From contig JALGYY010000023.1 of the NCBI GenBank assembly GCA_025782575.1, positions 1 to 30,544 on the forward strand: a stretch of 30,544 nt of DNA, given 5' to 3'. Below are positions 21,694 to 29,896 of this stretch, piece by piece. The notes beneath the pieces are model-generated. The model was not told the DNA's origin. It was given only the letters and a program-made list of their open reading frames with translations, and did not search any database. Position 1 is the first letter of the stretch. Each line of letters starts with the position of its first letter. Made by a program: the position numbers and the translations under genes. Origin of the DNA: a bacterium. GTDB taxonomy: Bacteria > Orphanbacterota > Orphanbacteria > Orphanbacterales > Orphanbacteraceae.

Positions 21694-22836
21694 ATGAATC
21701 GCAAGTGGAAGTGGCTGTTCATGGCTTTTGTTCTCCCTCTCCTGTTCGTGCTCGCCGCAGGTTGCGGCGATGATGACAACCCCTCCCAACCTGGCGACGA
21801 CGACGACGATAACGATGATTTTGTGGCGACCACGGAATCGGTTCTCCAGACGATGGATGATGTCATGGGGGGGCTGAACACAACGGCCGGTGAGTGTGAC
21901 CCGCTCTCTCTATTCGCCTGTGACGAAAACGAAGATGCCCTGACGTGGATGAGCGAGGTCGTTCTGTTCAGCGTCTTCTTCGGGAACCCGCTTTCCAACT
22001 TCTTCGGAACCTGGGAAGACTCGAGCCCCGATTCGGGCGGCGCCGCCGATGTGGTGCAGATTGATGCCGGGAGTCCTTCGGGGGCGATGCAGCTCAATCT
22101 TGGGGACTGCGTTCCGGTCGGCGGAGGGAAGGGTGCCGCAATCGCCGGGAATTTCACCCTGAGCGTATTTACCTTCGCACTTGATGAAGAGACAGGCGCG
22201 TTCAGTGCCGACATCGAGGGATCGGTCAACGCTACTGACGCAGGGGAGTCGATTACCTTTGATCTTTCGTCGACCGCTGTGATCGATGAGGAAGGTGAAT
22301 TGCAGGAGATGGACTTGTCCCTCACCGGGGCAGTTTGCAATCTCGCTTATTCTCTTGATCTGCAGCTGACTGATCAGAGCCAGATGGAGATGGACGGGCA
22401 CTTCGGCAGCGGTTCGGAACAGCTGAACTTCTCTGTGGTGGGGGATATCGAGGCAGAAGAGGGATGCGTTGAAACGACCTTGTGGACAGGAACTGACATG
22501 GCAACCGCCGAGTTCTACATGAATATCACCGTCTGTGACTCGGAAGAGGACTGCGTAACCGGTACGGTCAGGATCGACGGCGAGGATGTGGGCACTCTCA
22601 TGGCTGACGATTGCACTGCCGAGGAGACTGAGGTTCTGTTGGTAGTCGACGGTGAGACCATTTCTGCCGAGGAGCTCTTTGATTCAATCGAGTCTCTTTT
22701 TGATCAGCTGACCGGTCTCGGTCTGGAGGGTGGCCTGGGTGCCAAGCGAGCCCCCGGGAATGTTTCCGGACTGGCTCGCGTGATCGTCGACAATCCGGCT
22801 CTGATGATCCTCCGGGAAGCGGGAGTAAGTTTCTAG
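21694..22836 (+). CDS. Hypothetical lipoprotein with Asp-rich linker
   Basis: This 380-residue protein begins with a lipoprotein signal: basic MNRKWK, a hydrophobic core, and lipobox LAAGC with acylated Cys24. The residue after Cys is Gly, so an outer-membrane destination is likely in a Gram-negative cell. A very acidic stretch follows (DDDNP, then DDDDDNDD, residues 26-42), perhaps a flexible or calcium-binding linker. The body is rich in Asp/Glu/Thr/Ser with alternating hydrophobics (beta-rich) and has several cysteines that could form disulfides. GGAGG precedes the ATG by nine bases. I do not recognise the family. It is divergent from the APC permease and ends at a bidirectional terminator. 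Confidence 0.75.
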   Translation: MNRKWKWLFMAFVLPLLFVLAAGCGDDDNPSQPGDDDDDNDDFVATTESVLQTMDDVMGGLNTTAGECDPLSLFACDENEDALTWMSEVVLFSVFFGNPLSNFFGTWEDSSPDSGGAADVVQIDAGSPSGAMQLNLGDCVPVGGGKGAAIAGNFTLSVFTFALDEETGAFSADIEGSVNATDAGESITFDLSSTAVIDEEGELQEMDLSLTGAVCNLAYSLDLQLTDQSQMEMDGHFGSGSEQLNFSVVGDIEAEEGCVETTLWTGTDMATAEFYMNITVCDSEEDCVTGTVRIDGEDVGTLMADDCTAEETEVLLVVDGETISAEELFDSIESLFDQLTGLGLEGGLGAKRAPGNVSGLARVIVDNPALMILREAGVSF

Positions 22837-22869
22837 AGCTTTTCTGGTTCGGCGATGAGTGATAGAGTA

Positions 22870-22903
22870 AAGGGTCAGATCCCGGCGAGGGTCTGACCCT
22901 TTG
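22870..22903. terminator. Bidirectional terminator between convergent genes
   Basis: AAAGGGTCAGA (22870-22880) pairs with TCTGACCCTTT (22893-22903), extended by CCC/GGG near the loop GGCGA with one bulged T. The stem is flanked by A and T runs on both sides. It lies between the stop of the lipoprotein gene (plus) and the end of the aminotransferase pseudogene (minus), so it should serve both directions. Confidence 0.75.
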
Positions 22904-22914
22904 CACGACATGGT

Positions 22915-23744
22915 TCATGAGAGTGCGGCGGCTAACCGTTCGAGTCCGTCTTCGAGATCGGCCTTCGGAACGCCGAACCCGATCCGGAAAGCGCTCTCGA
23001 CTTCGAAGAACGAACTCATCGGACGATCGACAGCTCCGAAATCGGGGAAGGCGACAATTCCGGCATCCGGTCGGACCCACTCGAGCCTGGGTTGCCCGGC
23101 GATCCAGTCGACCAGAATCTCCCTGTTTTCCCCTGCCCGCTCGATGAATTCCCGTCGCGCCGTGATCCAGCCCGGAATCTTTGATGAAGTCCCGATAGAC
23201 TTCGTCAATCAGCAGGTCGAAGTCCTCATTCTCAGCCGTTTGGGCGAGCCAGGCCTGGTCATCGTCGGTGAGTCGGATCCCGCTCGGATTGTGGGGACCG
23301 GTCAATACGGCCATTCGGATCCCGCCGCTGATGGCCTTCAGAAACCGTTCCCGGTCGAGTCTGAAACCACTGTCGAAGCCCCGATCGAAGCGGATCGTGC
23401 GGGCGCCGAAGAAAGCGGGCACGAGACGAATCGGCTCGTAAGCCGGTTCCTCGATCAGAACCCGATCGCCCCTCTCGAGACAGGCCGCATAGGTGAGAAA
23501 GAGCCCCATGGTCGCCCCATTGACAGGAAGCACATTTTGTTCGGATAATCCGTAGGATCGGGCGATCGCCGAGCGTAATCGTGCGCTACCCCAATCGAGT
23601 CTGTCGTCGGGTAGTAGATCGTTCATGTGTAAGCCCGAATGAGGTGGGCGATATCTCGGGCATGCCGCTTGCGGACAGGTCGCACTCATCACCCCTCTCG
23701 AGATATCGATACCATTTCAGGTACTCGGGAACAGGTAGTCGCAC
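22915..23744 (-). pseudogene. Decayed class I/II aminotransferase (PLP-lysine region deleted, two frameshifts)
   Basis: Three pieces in three frames line up with one fold-type I aminotransferase. Piece 1 starts at a GTG at 23744 (CGGAGG upstream) and gives VPEYLKWYRY and SASGMPEISPTSFGL. Near 23630 the frame shifts to piece 2, NDLLPDDRLDWGSARLRSAI through LTGPHNPSGI to LLIDEVYRDFI. At about 23183 it jumps to piece 3, IPGWITARREFIERAGENRE to the stop at 22915. Between DEVYRDF and PGWITARREF a full enzyme has roughly 80-100 residues including the S-x-x-K PLP lysine; these are absent. The product cannot be active. The substrate is unknown. Confidence 0.85.
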
Positions 23745-23860: not shown

Positions 23861-24376
23861 ATGAACCCTCTCACAGGTCTAACTCTCGCATGCTCCGAGC
23901 CGCGGCTTTCCGGCAGGGAAGAGGGTGGAGCTCTCCCGGATAACCACGCGCAGGAGCTTACCTGGACGGTTCATCCGGCGCGCAGGAATCCCGCTCAGGC
24001 AGTCGCGGTCGGCCTCGTCGTGATCCTCGTGCCGATCGCGATTCTCCAGGCCGGTCTCCAGCCGATTTTCGCCATTTTAGGTTTCCTCTTGCTCGCGGCA
24101 TCGCTCGGGAGCTTCTTTTTTCCTACCACGGTCCGGTTCGATGAAAACAGTGTAACCGTAAGAAGCCTATGGGGTAAGAAGCAGAGACAATGGAACCGTT
24201 TCCGCAGTTTTCGTTATGATTCCGAACATGTCAGACTCTGCACGTTCGGACATGCGACACGACTGGATCACTTTCGTGGGCTCCTTCTCCGGTTCGGTGG
24301 GAACCGGAAGCAGGTCCTCCAGTTCGTGCGGGGCAAAGTCGCCTCTCCTTCCAGGGGAGAAGCAGTCGGCTCATGA
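23861..24376 (+). CDS. Two-helix membrane protein with PH-like C-terminal domain
   Basis: This 171-residue protein has a polar N-terminus, two adjacent hydrophobic helices (about 46-66 and 68-87), and a soluble C-terminal part beginning FPTTVRFDENSVTVRSLWGKKQRQWNRF. That pattern of short strands resembles bacterial PH-like domains that follow two helices. I start it at the ATG at 23861; upstream in-frame sequence overlaps the 5' end of the opposite-strand pseudogene. There is no ribosome site. The stop overlaps the next ATG by four bases (ATGA), so it is the first gene of the operon. The function is unknown. Confidence 0.65.
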   Translation: MNPLTGLTLACSEPRLSGREEGGALPDNHAQELTWTVHPARRNPAQAVAVGLVVILVPIAILQAGLQPIFAILGFLLLAASLGSFFFPTTVRFDENSVTVRSLWGKKQRQWNRFRSFRYDSEHVRLCTFGHATRLDHFRGLLLRFGGNRKQVLQFVRGKVASPSRGEAVGS

Positions 24377-24792
24377 CATCACCGATCAAAGCACTCTTCG
24401 CCTCGTCCGGAGACGGAAAGCTCACAGATGACGAGTTCATTCTTAAAATGGCCGAGCGGGTGGTCGGTACGGGCATGTCTGTCCCGGCCGTTCTCTTTCT
24501 CGAAATGGGAAAACCTCTCTCGTACATCAGTAGTCAAGCCATGGTCTTTTTCGCGCCTATAGCAACGGCGCTCTTTCCCGGCGACGGGTACAATCGTCTT
24601 TCGCGCCTGCTCGAGGATCGAGAGAACGTGGATCGCCTCATGAGAAAAATCGAGCAACTGGAAGATGAAGGTCAAAGAAAATCCAAAGAGGCCCGAAAGA
24701 ACAGCCCGAAAAAGGGGCTGTTTTCTTTTATGCGGCGTTCGAAGCCGAAAGGTGGAGACTCCGACAGGGCCGACGACAATCGAAGCGCATGA
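24373..24792 (+). CDS. Conserved hypothetical protein of the DUF6754 operon
   Basis: This 139-residue protein has the core LTDDEFILKMAERVVGTGMSVPAVLFLEMGKPLSYISSQAMVFFAPIATALFPG, followed by LLEDRENVDRLMRKIEQLED and a basic tail rich in Lys, Arg and Ser. The central part (about 36-70) is hydrophobic enough to lie on or in the membrane; the rest looks cytoplasmic and helical. The ATG overlaps the stop of the upstream gene. I do not know a function; the phrase-like conservation of the core suggests a real family rather than a chance ORF. Confidence 0.7.
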   Translation: MTSPIKALFASSGDGKLTDDEFILKMAERVVGTGMSVPAVLFLEMGKPLSYISSQAMVFFAPIATALFPGDGYNRLSRLLEDRENVDRLMRKIEQLEDEGQRKSKEARKNSPKKGLFSFMRRSKPKGGDSDRADDNRSA

Positions 24793-24805
24793 CAAAGGAG
24801 AACCA

Positions 24806-26053
24806 GTGAAACGACGGAAAGGGCTCATGAGGATCGGTCTTCTCAGCGCCGCCCTCCTCCTCGTGCTCTCGGTCTCGGCGTTCGCGCAGGATGCCGAGCC
24901 GGCGGAAGAAGCGCCGCAGGAGGTGTATGACGCGCCTCCCGCCCCGGTGACGAACCTGATTGCCAAGGATCACGTTTATGATTCCGGCAAGGAAATCGAC
25001 ATCGAGTTTGACAGGTCTGCCGACGACGGCAGCGGCGCGGACGACGTGGAAAAGTACGAGGTCTACCGGTCTGAATCGGGTAGCGAGGAGACGCTTGTCA
25101 CGACGATCCCCGCGATGGTTTCCGGCGGCGATCGGCGTGTCATCATTGATGACAGTAACGGCGGACTGGAGAACGGAGCGGAGTACAGCTACCGGGTGCT
25201 CACGATCGACCGGGCGGGGGGGAGTTCCGAGACCAGACTTTCCGGCACAGTTTCTCCATCCGGTGAGTGGTTCGACTTCAAGAAGATCAATATGCTGGCG
25301 GCGCTCGTCATTCTTGTTTTCCTGATCAAGTTCTTCATCAGGAAGGCGCAGAGAGGCGAGGAGATTTATCTCCGCCCCGTCGCCGGTCTTCAGGCTTTTG
25401 ACGAAGCGGTCGGCCGTGCGACAGAGATGGGCAAGTCGGTGCTCTACGTGCCTGGTATCATGGATCTCGATCAGGTAGAGACGGTAGCCGGAATCATCAT
25501 CCTCGGCTATGTGTCGAAGATGACCGCCCGTTACGAAACGGATCTCGAGGTTCCGGTCTCCCGTTCGCTCGTGATGTCGAACGCACGTGAGGTGTGCAAG
25601 TCGTCTTATCTTTCCGAGGGGCGGCCCGAGCTGTTCAAAGACGACATGGTCCATTATCTGACGGACGATCAGTTCGCGTATGCGGCCGGTGTAAACGGGA
25701 TCATGCTCAGAAAGAAGCCGGCCGCCTGCTTCTATCAGGGTAAATTCTACGCCGAATCGCTCATTCTCGCTGAAACCGGGAACTCGATCGGCGCGATTCA
25801 GATTGCGGGAACGGCCTCACCTGCGCAGATCCCGTTTTTCATCACTGCCTGCGACTACACGCTGATCGGCGAGGAGTTCTTTGCCGCGAGCGCGTATCTT
25901 TCGCAGGACCCGAAGCTGGTGGGGAGTCTTAAGGGGCAGGACTGGGCGAAGGGGATCATCATGATCGCCATCGTGGTCGGCGCCCTCGTGGAGACCTTGA
26001 ATGTCCTCGGGGTGGTCACGTTCAGTCTGAAGCCGCTTCTGGCTGTCGGATAA
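24806..26053 (+). CDS. DUF6754 membrane protein with fibronectin type III-like domain
   Basis: This 415-residue protein starts at a GTG at 24806 (AAAGGAG five bases upstream). It has, in order, a signal peptide (1-27, cleaved after AFA), a fibronectin III-like beta-sandwich (about 45-152, PPAPVTNLIAKD to TRLSGTVSPSG), a membrane helix (161-178), and a domain of about 200 residues containing VLYVPGIMDLDQVETVAGI, YLTDDQFAYAAGVNGIMLRKKPAACFYQG and ITACDYTLIGEEFFAASAYLSQDP. This matches my memory of DUF6754. A last hydrophobic helix ends the protein. The FN3 part would face outside and the DUF6754 part inside. Function unknown. Confidence 0.75.
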   Translation: MKRRKGLMRIGLLSAALLLVLSVSAFAQDAEPAEEAPQEVYDAPPAPVTNLIAKDHVYDSGKEIDIEFDRSADDGSGADDVEKYEVYRSESGSEETLVTTIPAMVSGGDRRVIIDDSNGGLENGAEYSYRVLTIDRAGGSSETRLSGTVSPSGEWFDFKKINMLAALVILVFLIKFFIRKAQRGEEIYLRPVAGLQAFDEAVGRATEMGKSVLYVPGIMDLDQVETVAGIIILGYVSKMTARYETDLEVPVSRSLVMSNAREVCKSSYLSEGRPELFKDDMVHYLTDDQFAYAAGVNGIMLRKKPAACFYQGKFYAESLILAETGNSIGAIQIAGTASPAQIPFFITACDYTLIGEEFFAASAYLSQDPKLVGSLKGQDWAKGIIMIAIVVGALVETLNVLGVVTFSLKPLLAVG

Positions 26054-26065
26054 GGAGGAATCGCG

Positions 26066-26749
26066 ATGTTCTGGAAAACCCAGATACCGGTTGCGATTGT
26101 CTTCGTAGTCGGCATGCTCACACTGGTCCAGTGGTTCATACCCCACCGGCCCTTCGATCAGCTTCAGGTTCATATGACCCAGTGGTTCGACATTATCGCG
26201 GTGTTCGCCGTGATTCTGGGCGGGCTGAATCTTCTGAAGCTTCAATTCTCTAAAATCATCAACAGAAAGAAAGACTGGCAGTACGCCATCGTGACGCTTG
26301 TCGGCTTCGCCGTCATGTTCTCCTACGGCTTTTTCCGGATCGGCGTGCCGGGAGAGATCGTCATGGGAGATCATCTCCAGGCGGAAAACAGCCATTTTCG
26401 CTGGATGTTCTTCAACATATTCACGCCCCTCTCGGCGACCATGTTCGCGCTGCTCGCGTTCTTCGTCGCTTCGGCGTCCTATCGGGCGTTCCGGATTCGG
26501 AACACGGAAGCGACACTGCTGCTGGTAGCGGGCATGATTCTAATGCTCGGGCGGGTGCCGCTCGGCGCGTTACTGACCAAGAATCTCCCGTCTTTCATGC
26601 AACTTCAGAACATACAGGAGTGGATCTATCTCTGGCCGAACGTAGCGGGTGCCCGGGCGATCATGATCGGCATCGGGCTCGGCATGGTGGCCACGTCACT
26701 CCGCTTTATTCTGGGAATCGAAAAAAGCTTTCTCGGGGGGGATGAATAA
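26066..26749 (+). CDS. Six-helix membrane protein of the DUF6754 operon
   Basis: This 227-residue protein has six predicted membrane helices (about 7-25, 39-58, 72-95, 114-142, 148-169, 195-217) and short polar loops. AAGGAGG precedes the ATG. A loop with NSHFRWMFFNIFTPLSATMF stands out, as does the final loop LQNIQEWIYLWPNVAGARA. I do not recognise a transporter or enzyme motif. It ends in a TAATG overlap with the next gene, so the two are translationally coupled and probably form one complex. Confidence 0.75.
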   Translation: MFWKTQIPVAIVFVVGMLTLVQWFIPHRPFDQLQVHMTQWFDIIAVFAVILGGLNLLKLQFSKIINRKKDWQYAIVTLVGFAVMFSYGFFRIGVPGEIVMGDHLQAENSHFRWMFFNIFTPLSATMFALLAFFVASASYRAFRIRNTEATLLLVAGMILMLGRVPLGALLTKNLPSFMQLQNIQEWIYLWPNVAGARAIMIGIGLGMVATSLRFILGIEKSFLGGDE

Positions 26750-27588
26750 TGGCGAACGACAAATCCTTCCTGGAAAGACTGGGCGATCTCGATCGCCGTT
26801 GGGTATTCATAATCATCGGTCTTTCCGTCTTTATTCCTTTGCTTGTACCGCTCGGGCTGGAGGTTGTCACAACACCGACTACGGTCGATGTGTTCAACGC
26901 GATCGACTCATTGCCCGCGGGGACACGGGTGCTGATCTCGTTCGAATACGGACCGAGCACGCAGCCTGAGGTGGAGCCGATGGGAGTCGCCCTTCTCCAT
27001 CATCTGTTTCGCAAAGATTGCCGCGTAATCGCGACGGCACTCTGGCCGGACGGTCAGTTCATGTCCGCCCGCCTGTTCGAGCTGTTTGAAGCCGAGTACG
27101 ATCTGGAGTGGGGTGTGGACTATGTAAATCTCGGCTTCCGGCCCGGGGCGGAAGCAGTAATCAAGGGAATCGCCAAGGAGTTCCGGGCGAATTACAGAAC
27201 TGATCTCCGAGGCAATCTGGTGGAAGATCTGCCCATCATGGACGGAATCTACAAGGTCGCCGATGTGGACTTCATTTTCACACTGTCGGCCGGCTATCCC
27301 GGAACGGTGGAATGGATCCTGTACGCGGCTGATCCGTACAACATTCCGATGTCGAGCGGGGTTACGGCGATCCAGGTGAACGAGGTCATTCCCTACGTCG
27401 ATGCCGGGCAGTGCTACGGAATTCTTGCCGGGATGTCGGGGGCGGCGGAATACGAAACGCTCGTCAAGAAGGGTGATGCGACCAAGTTCATGGACGCGCA
27501 GTCGATCGCTCACTTTCTGATCGTGCTCTTCATCATACTCGGCAACATTTCGTACATCGTTGGCCGGCGTCGCCAACGGTCAGCATAG
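26749..27588 (+). CDS. Membrane-anchored Rossmann-like protein of the DUF6754 operon
   Basis: This 279-residue protein has a helix near each end (about 18-38 and 256-273) and a domain of about 210 residues between. The domain alternates strands and helices (TRVLISFEYGPS, CRVIATALWPDG, DYVNLGFRPGAEAVIKGI, DVDFIFTLSAGYPGTVEWILY, GQCYGILAGMSGAAEYETL), which suggests a Rossmann-like alpha/beta fold exposed on one side of the membrane. The conserved-looking GMSGAAEYE near the C-terminal helix may be a functional site. I cannot assign a reaction. It starts by TAATG overlap with the six-helix protein. Confidence 0.75.
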   Translation: MANDKSFLERLGDLDRRWVFIIIGLSVFIPLLVPLGLEVVTTPTTVDVFNAIDSLPAGTRVLISFEYGPSTQPEVEPMGVALLHHLFRKDCRVIATALWPDGQFMSARLFELFEAEYDLEWGVDYVNLGFRPGAEAVIKGIAKEFRANYRTDLRGNLVEDLPIMDGIYKVADVDFIFTLSAGYPGTVEWILYAADPYNIPMSSGVTAIQVNEVIPYVDAGQCYGILAGMSGAAEYETLVKKGDATKFMDAQSIAHFLIVLFIILGNISYIVGRRRQRSA

Positions 27589-27597
27589 GGGGTCGCC

Positions 27598-28467
27598 ATG
27601 TCGAAAGATGTATGGACAATCGTTTCGATCGTGATCGTCGCGGCCCTTTCCGCTCTCAGTGTCGCTGCGATTTCCTGGGGCATCGATAACCATGAAATTG
27701 GTTTCGGATTCTGGATCGGGTCGTTACTGACTATGGGAATCATGTCCTATTTATATGCGGATAATCCGTTCTACAAGTTTACCGAGCACCTGTTCGTGGG
27801 AGTGTCGGCGTCGTACTGGATCGCTACGTATTACTGGACCCAGATCGACACGAATCTCCTCGGCCGTCTCTTCCCTGAAAAGACATCGTTTCTGGGGATG
27901 ACGATCGACTTTTCAAGGCACGGACATGAACAGAACCTCTGGTATCTGATCCCGCTCGTGCTCGGTCTCTTCATGCTCGCTCGCCTGATTCCATCGATCG
28001 GATGGATCAGCCGGTGGTCACTCTCGTTCGTCGTCGGTCTTTACGCCGGACTTCGGAGTTACGGCTATCTGCAGTCGAATGTGATGCAGCAGGCAAAGGA
28101 GACCTTCAGGCCGATCATCATTCCAGGCGACTTCTGGGCCGGATTCAACCACCTGGTCCTGGTCGTCGGCGTTGTATCCGCTCTCCTCTACTTCTTCTTC
28201 TCGAAGGAACACAAGGGGATGTTCGGGACGATTTCACGGGTGGGGATCTTCTTCCTGATGGTCTCCTTCGGCGCCGCGTTCGGTTTCGCAGTCATGGGCC
28301 GGATTTCGCTTCTGATCGGCCGGTTCGACTTCCTGATCCGGGCGAGTACGGCTGAAAACGGATACCCGTCGATCGTAGTTACCGTCCTTATGGTCGCTAT
28401 CCTGTCCATTCTCGCCATGAAGAACAAGGGCAAGGGAGAGGACGAGGACGAGTTGTTCGAGCCGTAG
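27598..28467 (+). CDS. Multi-spanning membrane protein, last gene of the DUF6754 operon
   Basis: This 289-residue protein has about eight hydrophobic helices, starting with VWTIVSIVIVAALSALSVAA and including FYKFTEHLFVGVSASYWIATYYW, an uncommon segment with paired aromatic residues. The C-terminus is short and strongly acidic (GEDEDELFEP). GGGGG precedes the ATG and the gap to the upstream gene is nine bases. No known transporter signature is seen. With the other membrane proteins it probably makes an integral membrane complex. Confidence 0.75.
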   Translation: MSKDVWTIVSIVIVAALSALSVAAISWGIDNHEIGFGFWIGSLLTMGIMSYLYADNPFYKFTEHLFVGVSASYWIATYYWTQIDTNLLGRLFPEKTSFLGMTIDFSRHGHEQNLWYLIPLVLGLFMLARLIPSIGWISRWSLSFVVGLYAGLRSYGYLQSNVMQQAKETFRPIIIPGDFWAGFNHLVLVVGVVSALLYFFFSKEHKGMFGTISRVGIFFLMVSFGAAFGFAVMGRISLLIGRFDFLIRASTAENGYPSIVVTVLMVAILSILAMKNKGKGEDEDELFEP

Positions 28468-28547: not shown

Positions 28548-29537
28548 TTATTCCTGCGCGGCCGCCGCCTCTTCTTCCTCGGCGCTCAGGAGCGGGGAGA
28601 GGAGTTGTCCGCGCTCTTCGGGCGGCGGGTACCACTCGATCGAATCGGGCGCGGCATCGAAGCGACGGGACCGAAGCAGGAACAGAACGAGTAGTGCTTC
28701 GGCGAGGAAGCAGAGCACGCTCCCTTCCGGGCCGAAAGAGCCGCCGCTCCACCAGTCGGGGCCGGTTACGGTGGCTACGAAGGGGGAGACGGCGATCGTC
28801 TCCCCGCTCACCGGTAGCGACAGAATCCAGGAGTTCGCGAAGTTCCAGGTGATGTGCATGCCGATCGGCACCCAGAGGGACCGGGTCCGGAAATAGGCGA
28901 TACAGAGCATGAGGCCGGCCAGGCCGGTCGAGATCGCGCCGACCAGCGTCCCTCCCTCGTTGAAGAAGTGAAGAATGCCGAACGGTAGGGATAGGAGGAG
29001 GGCGGCGACTATCTTGTTCGTCCCCTCGGCGAGCGCCTGCAGCAGGAATCCGCGAAAGAGAAGTTCTTCCATGAATCCGACAGTGATAAACAGGAGGCCG
29101 TAGGTCAGAAAGCTTTTGAGTAGGGCGGAGCCGCTCAGGCCGGCAGGTTCAAGATGAAGAGATCCTGTGACCATCAGGACCAGGCCGATCGCACACATCC
29201 CAGCCGCCCCGAGAAAGAGGCCGAGACCGAACTCTTTCTGCCAGTTGGAATGGAAACCGAGGCCGAGACTGCTGATCCTGCGCCGGTCCAGATTCTTGGC
29301 GACGATAAGAGAGGCGACAAAGATCGCGATTGAGAGAAGTATGTTGAAAATAGAGACACCGATCGGGTTCAGATCTCTCAGGCTGGTTTCCCCCTCCGCT
29401 CCCTGCAGGAAGGCTTTGGTCAGCGGAACGGTACCCAGGATGATGGCAAATGCGAAGAGCCCGAACAGGCCGATAAAGAGAATGATCCGCCAGGGAATCC
29501 GAACGAGGCCATGTCGATTGTGCGTAAAAGTGTTCAT
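28548..29537 (-). CDS. CPBP family intramembrane glutamic endopeptidase
   Basis: This 329-residue multi-spanning protein has the three CPBP/Rce1 motifs: EELLFRG at 157-163 with the catalytic glutamates, GILHFFNEG with His190, and GMHITWNFANSW with His228. Family members cleave peptides inside the membrane (CAAX processing or bacteriocin self-immunity in some cases); the substrate here is unknown. The Ala-rich tail (EEEEAAAAQE) is unusual but not diagnostic. I start it at the ATG at 29537; an upstream TTG at 29576 would add 13 residues. It converges with the DUF6754 operon. Confidence 0.88.
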   Translation of the reverse strand: MNTFTHNRHGLVRIPWRIILFIGLFGLFAFAIILGTVPLTKAFLQGAEGETSLRDLNPIGVSIFNILLSIAIFVASLIVAKNLDRRRISSLGLGFHSNWQKEFGLGLFLGAAGMCAIGLVLMVTGSLHLEPAGLSGSALLKSFLTYGLLFITVGFMEELLFRGFLLQALAEGTNKIVAALLLSLPFGILHFFNEGGTLVGAISTGLAGLMLCIAYFRTRSLWVPIGMHITWNFANSWILSLPVSGETIAVSPFVATVTGPDWWSGGSFGPEGSVLCFLAEALLVLFLLRSRRFDAAPDSIEWYPPPEERGQLLSPLLSAEEEEAAAAQE

Positions 29538-29896
29538 GGTCGCCGCGATTGTAGGACCGTCGATGGAGTGAGGCAAGCAAGAACGGTGCAGGAATTGGCT
29601 TGCCTCCCGGCGTGCCCGGACTCGATTCTGAATTATTTTCGTGATTATTTTTATCTTTCAATAATATTGCTTGACACGATTTCGAGCGCGTTCGTTCGGG
29701 TTTGACGCGCCCGTCCGTCAGTATTCCCGTCAAGGGTCAGCGGCTTGGACTGCTCCGTTTGATGCTATCTCCTCGACGAAATGTTCAGATCCTTTGCCGC
29801 GAGTTCTTGCAGCGTCTCCCACGAAGCCGTAAATGGGGATGTTAGAATATCGATGGGACTTGGATCGACAAGGGTGGATGTGTGAGGGGGATTGTG
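29538..29896. other. AT-rich intergenic region
   Basis: This gap of about 360 bases holds no gene I can support. Its part at 29625-29670 is much richer in A and T than the surrounding genes and contains a candidate minus-strand promoter for the CPBP gene (separate entry). A TAGAAT at 29843-29848 is placed where a -10 element for the HNH-like gene could be, but no matching -35 is found. Confidence 0.5.
29632..29661 (-). promoter_or_regulatory. Candidate sigma-70 promoter for the CPBP protease gene
   Basis: On the minus strand TTGAAA (29656-29661) is followed after 18 bases by AATAAT (29632-29637), in an AT-rich stretch. Transcription would start near 29625, about 90 bases before the ATG at 29537. 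It is among the better consensus matches in the window. Confidence 0.5.

Follow-up and report, generated by a model that had tools for sequence, protein, structure and literature searches.

A six-gene membrane operon in the window (the whole 30,544-nucleotide stretch of DNA that was analysed) very probably belongs to one system of eight genes, the other two members of which encode a MutL-type ATPase and a KOW protein. Genome comparison is the basis for grouping the eight genes together and for treating four of them, g3-g6, as a fixed unit capable of duplication. The system is probably a new and widely distributed machine, in which several interchangeable membrane complexes, each made of four proteins and variable in its FN3 ectodomains, share a cytosolic MutL-KOW engine, and which has no relation to ABC, ECF, Rnf/Nqr, Sec, Tol and the known secretion systems.

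The operon occupies positions 23861-28467 and consists of six open reading frames on the same strand (+), with consecutive genes overlapping or separated by at most 13 bases:
g1, 23861-24376 (+): protein of about 171 residues with two hydrophobic segments followed by a C-terminal domain of about 85 residues
g2, 24373-24792 (+): small protein of 139 residues with conserved 'FLE..KPL.F.GSQ....P' and 'E.REN.E' motifs
g3, 24806-26053 (+): signal peptide, FN3 ectodomain, TM helix, DUF6754 domain (PF20539; predicted cytosolic) and TM helix
g4, 26066-26749 (+): polytopic membrane protein with conserved 'ATMF.LLAFF.ASA.YRAFRAR..EAT' and 'LGIERS.LGG'
g5, 26749-27588 (+): N-terminal TM helix, Rossmann-like domain predicted to lie outside, and C-terminal TM helix
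g6, 27598-28467 (+): polytopic membrane protein with invariant N56, E63, R235 and R242 and nearly invariant D55

The overlap of g1 and g2 is 4 bases (ATGA), g4 and g5 share one base (TAATG), and the gaps between g2 and g3, g3 and g4, and g5 and g6 are 13, 12 and 9 bases. The GTG at 24806, with AGGAG upstream, is most likely the start codon of g3. These coordinates confirm the one-strand operon with tight spacing and overlaps that the first-pass annotation had described. A conserved membrane operon around DUF6754 was likewise correctly recognised there, but the proposed six-gene unit lacked two members, the MutL-type ATPase and the KOW protein. Only g3 among the six proteins had a qualifying family match in Pfam (DUF6754), and none of the six had one in NCBIfam. 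Of the description of g1 as a two-helix PH-like protein, the two hydrophobic segments were borne out; for a PH-like domain Pfam gave no support, the matches of g1 being sub-threshold DUFs. DUF6754 and g5 each occur once in the window genome. On one flank of the operon, an aminotransferase class I/II gene is split over two frames at 22598-23692 (-) and 22915-23208 (-); the N-terminal half was recognised by PF00155, and what looks like the C-terminal part lies in the other frame, which suggests a frameshift or an assembly error. Downstream of g6 and convergent with the operon lies a gene for a CPBP/Rce1-like membrane protease (28548-29576, -).

The DUF6754 assignment of g3 was borne out by a Pfam score of 390.7 bits (cut-off 27; E = 3e-117). 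The FN3 domain was under the Pfam cut-off (E = 0.013); it was clear in the predicted structure, where VIA was the best match (Z = 12.4, 98 residues, rmsd 2.1), and a profile search returned titin FN3 (E = 2e-11), confirming the FN3 ectodomain proposed earlier. Long Foldseek matches of g3 were taken as spurious (rmsd >20), and the remaining ones were to FN3. Basic residues follow the first TM helix of g3, and the DUF6754 domain is predicted to lie on the inner, cytosolic side of the membrane. Residues 191-367 of g3, which comprise DUF6754, could be aligned to the Sir2 chain 1ma3 (Z = 11.0, 140 residues, rmsd 3.6), a match that is middling, of a kind general for Rossmann-like folds, and only suggestive. 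Among the homologues, the ectodomain varies from none (L104) to about 700 residues, with DUF6754 conserved, and some ectodomains appear by eye to contain multiple FN3-like repeats. Very long ectodomains in g3 proteins of more than 900 residues were seen in L071, L072, L089 and L090, and N-termini resembling those of lipoproteins were noted by eye in the g3 proteins of L089 and L090 and in one of L071. Our literature search found no paper that names DUF6754 or PF20539.

The predicted structure of g5 (mean pLDDT 96.4) contained an alpha/beta domain flanked by a helix at either terminus, in agreement with the double-anchored Rossmann-like protein of the earlier annotation. E74 and N266 were invariant in 75 aligned sequences. 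Foldseek returned nothing for g5 at E = 0.001 or better. The best structural neighbour was MTH777 (Z = 10.1), followed by a spread of Rossmann-like proteins, so the fold can be called Rossmann-like with no function implied; the match to the CODH/ACS epsilon subunit (Z = 8.8) was again middling and general for such folds. A DHS-like NAD-binding fold, as in Sir2 and CODH epsilon, is a candidate for both the DUF6754 and the g5 domain. A profile comparison of g5 with DUF6754 found no relation. Counts of K/R and D/E residues were 3.7 and 1.9 in one flank and 3.9 and 0.6 in the other, as against 16.9 and 23.9 in the domain; from this charge pattern, the flanks are predicted to be inside and the domain outside. 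The earlier placement of the Rossmann-like and DUF6754 domains 'on a membrane side' can therefore be divided, with the g5 domain predicted outside and, from the g3 sequence, DUF6754 predicted inside. Additional g5 copies follow a module in L078 and L079 with no extra g4, so that g5 can multiply on its own. In G066, g5 (L158:8082-10175) has a long N-terminal region of repeated short 'DWLR' motifs before the membrane part, which may be a cytosolic docking region. On a different contig of this genome (L160:9542-10693), g4 is followed by the beginning of a similar frame.

Both g4 and g6 are polytopic with charged residues that are invariant or nearly so. Neither matched a known family by sequence or gave a significant PDB match in profile and sequence searches; when PDB profile searches were run with g3, g4, g5, g6, KOW and MutL, FN3 was the one significant match. 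Most Neomarinimicrobiota loci (L009-L022) carry an insert of about 70-100 residues in g4 near window residue 95. The g1 gene adjoins g2 and, in other genomes, MutL.

Conserved gene order was assessed in 77 loci, 17 from a contig scan and 60 further ones, by profile searches for the six proteins. All 77 contained g3, and g4, g5, g6, g2 and g1 were detected in 74, 72, 70, 39 and 25 loci, respectively. The order g3-g4-g5-g6 was fixed in about 70 of the 77 loci, often with modules repeated in tandem in head-to-tail orientation; a single contig carried as many as three complete modules (L051), and partial further ones were present in L059. Eisenbacteria and Neomarinimicrobiota loci had the same gene order wherever the contig was long enough. 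The full cassette g1-g2-MutL-KOW-g3-g4-g5-g6 was contiguous in nine loci, two of which (L108 and L122) are from the same genome. The homologues were thus ordered and not scattered. Chance co-localisation was rejected on the basis of the order conserved outside the phylum and of co-occurrence. Outside the eight genes, no recurrent neighbour was found in the loci compared. In L136 (1875-4622), Pfam identified a gene with a bifunctional nuclease domain and a gene for a TPR/periplasmic-binding (LpoA-like) protein before g1-g2-MutL, and genes resembling this pair by sequence were present in another lineage (L140:2381-5111). A divergent operon (L156:8151-13713 and L157:4216-9718) encodes g2, a 485-residue protein in the place of MutL, a 243-residue protein in the place of DUF6754, g4, g5, g6 and an S41/PDZ protease. 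Its g2, g4, g5 and g6 match the system, with a large insert in g4. The 485- and 243-residue proteins had no detected match to MutL or DUF6754, so that only their position suggests equivalence to these members; KOW and DUF6754 were not detected in the two genomes.

The two additional members were found by following the neighbours of operon homologues. In many loci, two genes between g1-g2 and g3 encode a MutL-family protein of about 600 residues and a 372-residue KOW protein. Each occurs once in the window genome, where they are adjacent on contig C39 (MutL 38570-40336, KOW 40376-41497), away from the operon contig. The KOW protein has barrel-sandwich-like repeats, a middle domain with no match and a C-terminal KOW-like segment. 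The system MutL matched the 450-position Pfam MutL model (PF13941) with E = 1e-125, and its motifs DCGSTTTK, DIGGATTD and GSGGVLSHAP, which correspond to ASKHA ATPase motifs, were invariant or nearly so. From its sequence, the protein appears to belong to the actin/hexokinase (ASKHA) superfamily as a long ATPase of the MutL type, which would hydrolyse ATP. Mean column identity across lineages was 63% for MutL and 57% for KOW. A single frame of 964-1034 residues encodes both MutL and KOW in six paralogues (L116-L121) that lie apart from the membrane module; this natural fusion suggests that the two proteins are in physical contact. In some loci, g1-g2-MutL travel together without g3.

Identity of the system MutL with GlmL was rejected by the curated NCBIfam cut-offs, as its scores were under all three (NF040745, NF040744 and TIGR01319), at 229.4 bits against 475, 212.9 against 600 and 162 against 204.05. 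Short GlmLs of L165, L167 and L168 passed the cut-off of their own model. In a phylogenetic tree, the long MutLs and the fusions were split from nine short GlmL-type proteins with support of 100/97; a divergent pair from G036 and G183 fell on the short-GlmL side. Bootstrap values for this tree had not settled, and several of its branches were long. In the loci examined, no genes for AdoCbl-dependent mutases (GlmS/GlmE or OraS/OraE) adjoined the system MutL, and g1, g2 and KOW were found there instead. Mutase genes adjoined short GlmLs in L168 and L164 (Pfam match) and in L167 and L174 (by sequence). Nine genomes contained MutL without DUF6754: seven had short frames (455-503 residues), and G093 and G279 had the long form. 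Six of the seven short-frame genomes were placed in the tree, all among the short GlmL-type rows, and several had adjoining mutase genes.

Of 290 genomes sampled broadly across Bacteria, 79 carried DUF6754, and 75 of these lie outside the phylum of the window. Carriers are spread over many poorly studied bacterial lineages. Within that phylum, 4 of 7 genomes were positive, as were 70 of 120 genomes in the phylum of G203 and 3 of 4 in that of G142; none of 14 well-known control genomes was. The named DUF6754 relatives in the contig scan were from Candidatus Eisenbacteria, Neomarinimicrobiota and one bin labelled Gemmatimonadetes, and the system was also present in genomes of about 0.9 Mb. Across the 290 genomes, the numbers with both proteins, DUF6754 only, the other only and neither were 74, 5, 1 and 210 for KOW (p = 9e-62, an overstatement because related genomes are not independent), 74, 5, 9 and 202 for MutL, 77, 2, 2 and 209 for g5, and 73, 6, 3 and 208 for g2. 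This pattern of co-occurrence spans dozens of families. The genomes with DUF6754 and without detected KOW and MutL were few (G064, G083, G223 and G260).

The 79 genomes contained 145 DUF6754 copies, with two to seven copies in 35 of them. The copy number of g5 tracked that of DUF6754 (Spearman 0.93). By contrast, g2, normally a single-copy gene and present in 73 of the 79 genomes, was single in 32 of the 35 multi-copy genomes; two others had two hits (those of G169 being adjacent pieces) and G183 had none. Full-length KOW was normally single, with extra hits mostly to fused or partial forms. The membrane module thus multiplies, and the cytosolic part (g2, KOW and usually MutL) mostly stays single. 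In a sister genome from the window's family (G003), DUF6754, KOW and MutL were missing, and a contig carried a g2-like frame with 38% identity over 102 residues. On one side of this remnant lay a frame that resembles an aminotransferase by sequence, just as an aminotransferase gene precedes g1 in the window. On the other side, after a few hundred bases, came DNA 74% identical to window positions 28705-29015, which are part of the CPBP protease gene, and no trace of g3-g6 could be recognised in between. This arrangement points to concerted loss, in a single case and a draft genome where gaps or misassembly are possible.

How might such a system work? Because GlmL is described as reactivating glutamate mutase, the system MutL may, by analogy, drive or reset its partner by means of ATP. 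This partner is most likely the membrane module, and an ATP-dependent action of MutL on it is perhaps somewhat more likely than not. MutL would hydrolyse ATP, and the KOW adaptor together with the accessory proteins g1 and g2 would relay its action through the cytosolic DUF6754 domain to the membrane module, which would thereby be driven or reset. The two polytopic subunits, g4 and g6, would form the path through the membrane. The FN3 domains would be exposed to the envelope, as would the Rossmann-like domain that g5 is predicted to place outside, and together they would determine what a given module acts on. Duplicated g3-g6 modules do differ in their FN3 ectodomains. One shared energiser would thus serve several interchangeable membrane ports, moving a substrate across or within the envelope. 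We propose ATP-driven transport of this kind as the likeliest single purpose of the machine, but only tentatively and at less than even odds: no transporter homology was found, neighbours outside the cassette are not conserved, and a few genomes have DUF6754 with neither KOW nor MutL detected.

A further point against transport is that GlmL is described as a chaperone reactivating glutamate mutase and not as a transport ATPase (PMC4682846). This description favours an alternative in which the membrane module is an enzyme that holds a nucleotide or a redox cofactor in DUF6754 and the Rossmann-like domain of g5, and MutL-KOW acts as a GlmL-like, ATP-dependent chaperone for assembly or reactivation. 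The nearest ATPase relatives (GlmL and Or-4) adjoin AdoCbl mutases, one chaperone for several enzyme copies fits the copy numbers, and the likenesses of DUF6754 to Sir2 and of g5 to the CODH/ACS epsilon subunit point in the same direction. However, neither a catalytic motif nor a cofactor site could be found, these structural matches are the middling ones described above, and an enzyme of this kind would not usually carry FN3 ectodomains; we regard an enzyme as rather unlikely. The constancy of DUF6754 beneath ectodomains of none to about 700 residues, and the combination of many modules with one cytosolic set, would also suit receptors with a common downstream partner, where FN3 and g5 would recognise a ligand or surface and DUF6754 would relay the signal to MutL-KOW. 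Two conserved polytopic proteins exceed the needs of a receptor, and no linked output domain, regulator or DNA-binding partner was found, which makes a sensory or regulatory role unlikely. Still a little less probable is a complex for building or anchoring the envelope, in which FN3 would hold envelope or surface structures and MutL-KOW would remodel them. The LpoA-like protein before g1 and the S41 protease after g6 in the divergent version speak for it, but each of these neighbours was seen in only one or a few lineages, perhaps by chance. A known anti-phage defence system was rejected, as the PADLOC models gave no match below E = 0.02 for the eight proteins.

Whatever its purpose, about one-quarter (79 of 290) of the broadly sampled bacterial genomes carry the system, with proteins strongly conserved across lineages. 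The present analysis supplies a gene context for DUF6754 and for a large MutL branch outside the curated GlmL models, and it yields a testable prediction, an ATPase acting on a membrane complex. We regard the system as probably new because no paper, PDB entry or family model for it was found and its sole relative with a described role is a distant ATPase that serves another process. Searches of the literature on DUF6754, PF20539, PF13941 and GlmL returned nothing describing it, in line with the earlier suggestion of an undescribed system, and profile searches of families and the PDB agreed with the earlier view in giving no match to a known transporter or secretion complex. The newness of g4, g6, KOW and the isolated DUF6754 is judged at the level of sequence, and a known transporter fold could still emerge.

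Among known systems, the KOW protein has a weak domain-level likeness to the barrel-sandwich domains of RnfC/NqrA and of the RNA polymerase beta' subunit and to the KOW domain of NusG/Spt5, but differs in that no iron-sulphur or SLBB domain and no redox or transcription context was detected. The system MutL is homologous to GlmL/MutL (PF13941), accessory proteins in the contexts of glutamate mutase and of ornithine degradation, and has kept the ASKHA motifs. It differs in its length (599 residues in the window genome versus about 460), in scoring under the NCBIfam cut-offs, in lying on the other side of the tree branch and in having no mutase neighbours in the loci seen. The proposed arrangement as a whole resembles the ECF transporters of group II, in which one cytosolic energiser is common to several membrane modules. 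Unlike these, the present system gave no qualifying Pfam or NCBIfam match to an ABC ATPase or TM domain in the six window proteins, no ABC ATPase match in MutL or KOW, and no EcfT or S-component homology; the shared cytosolic energiser would instead serve several membrane modules of four proteins each.
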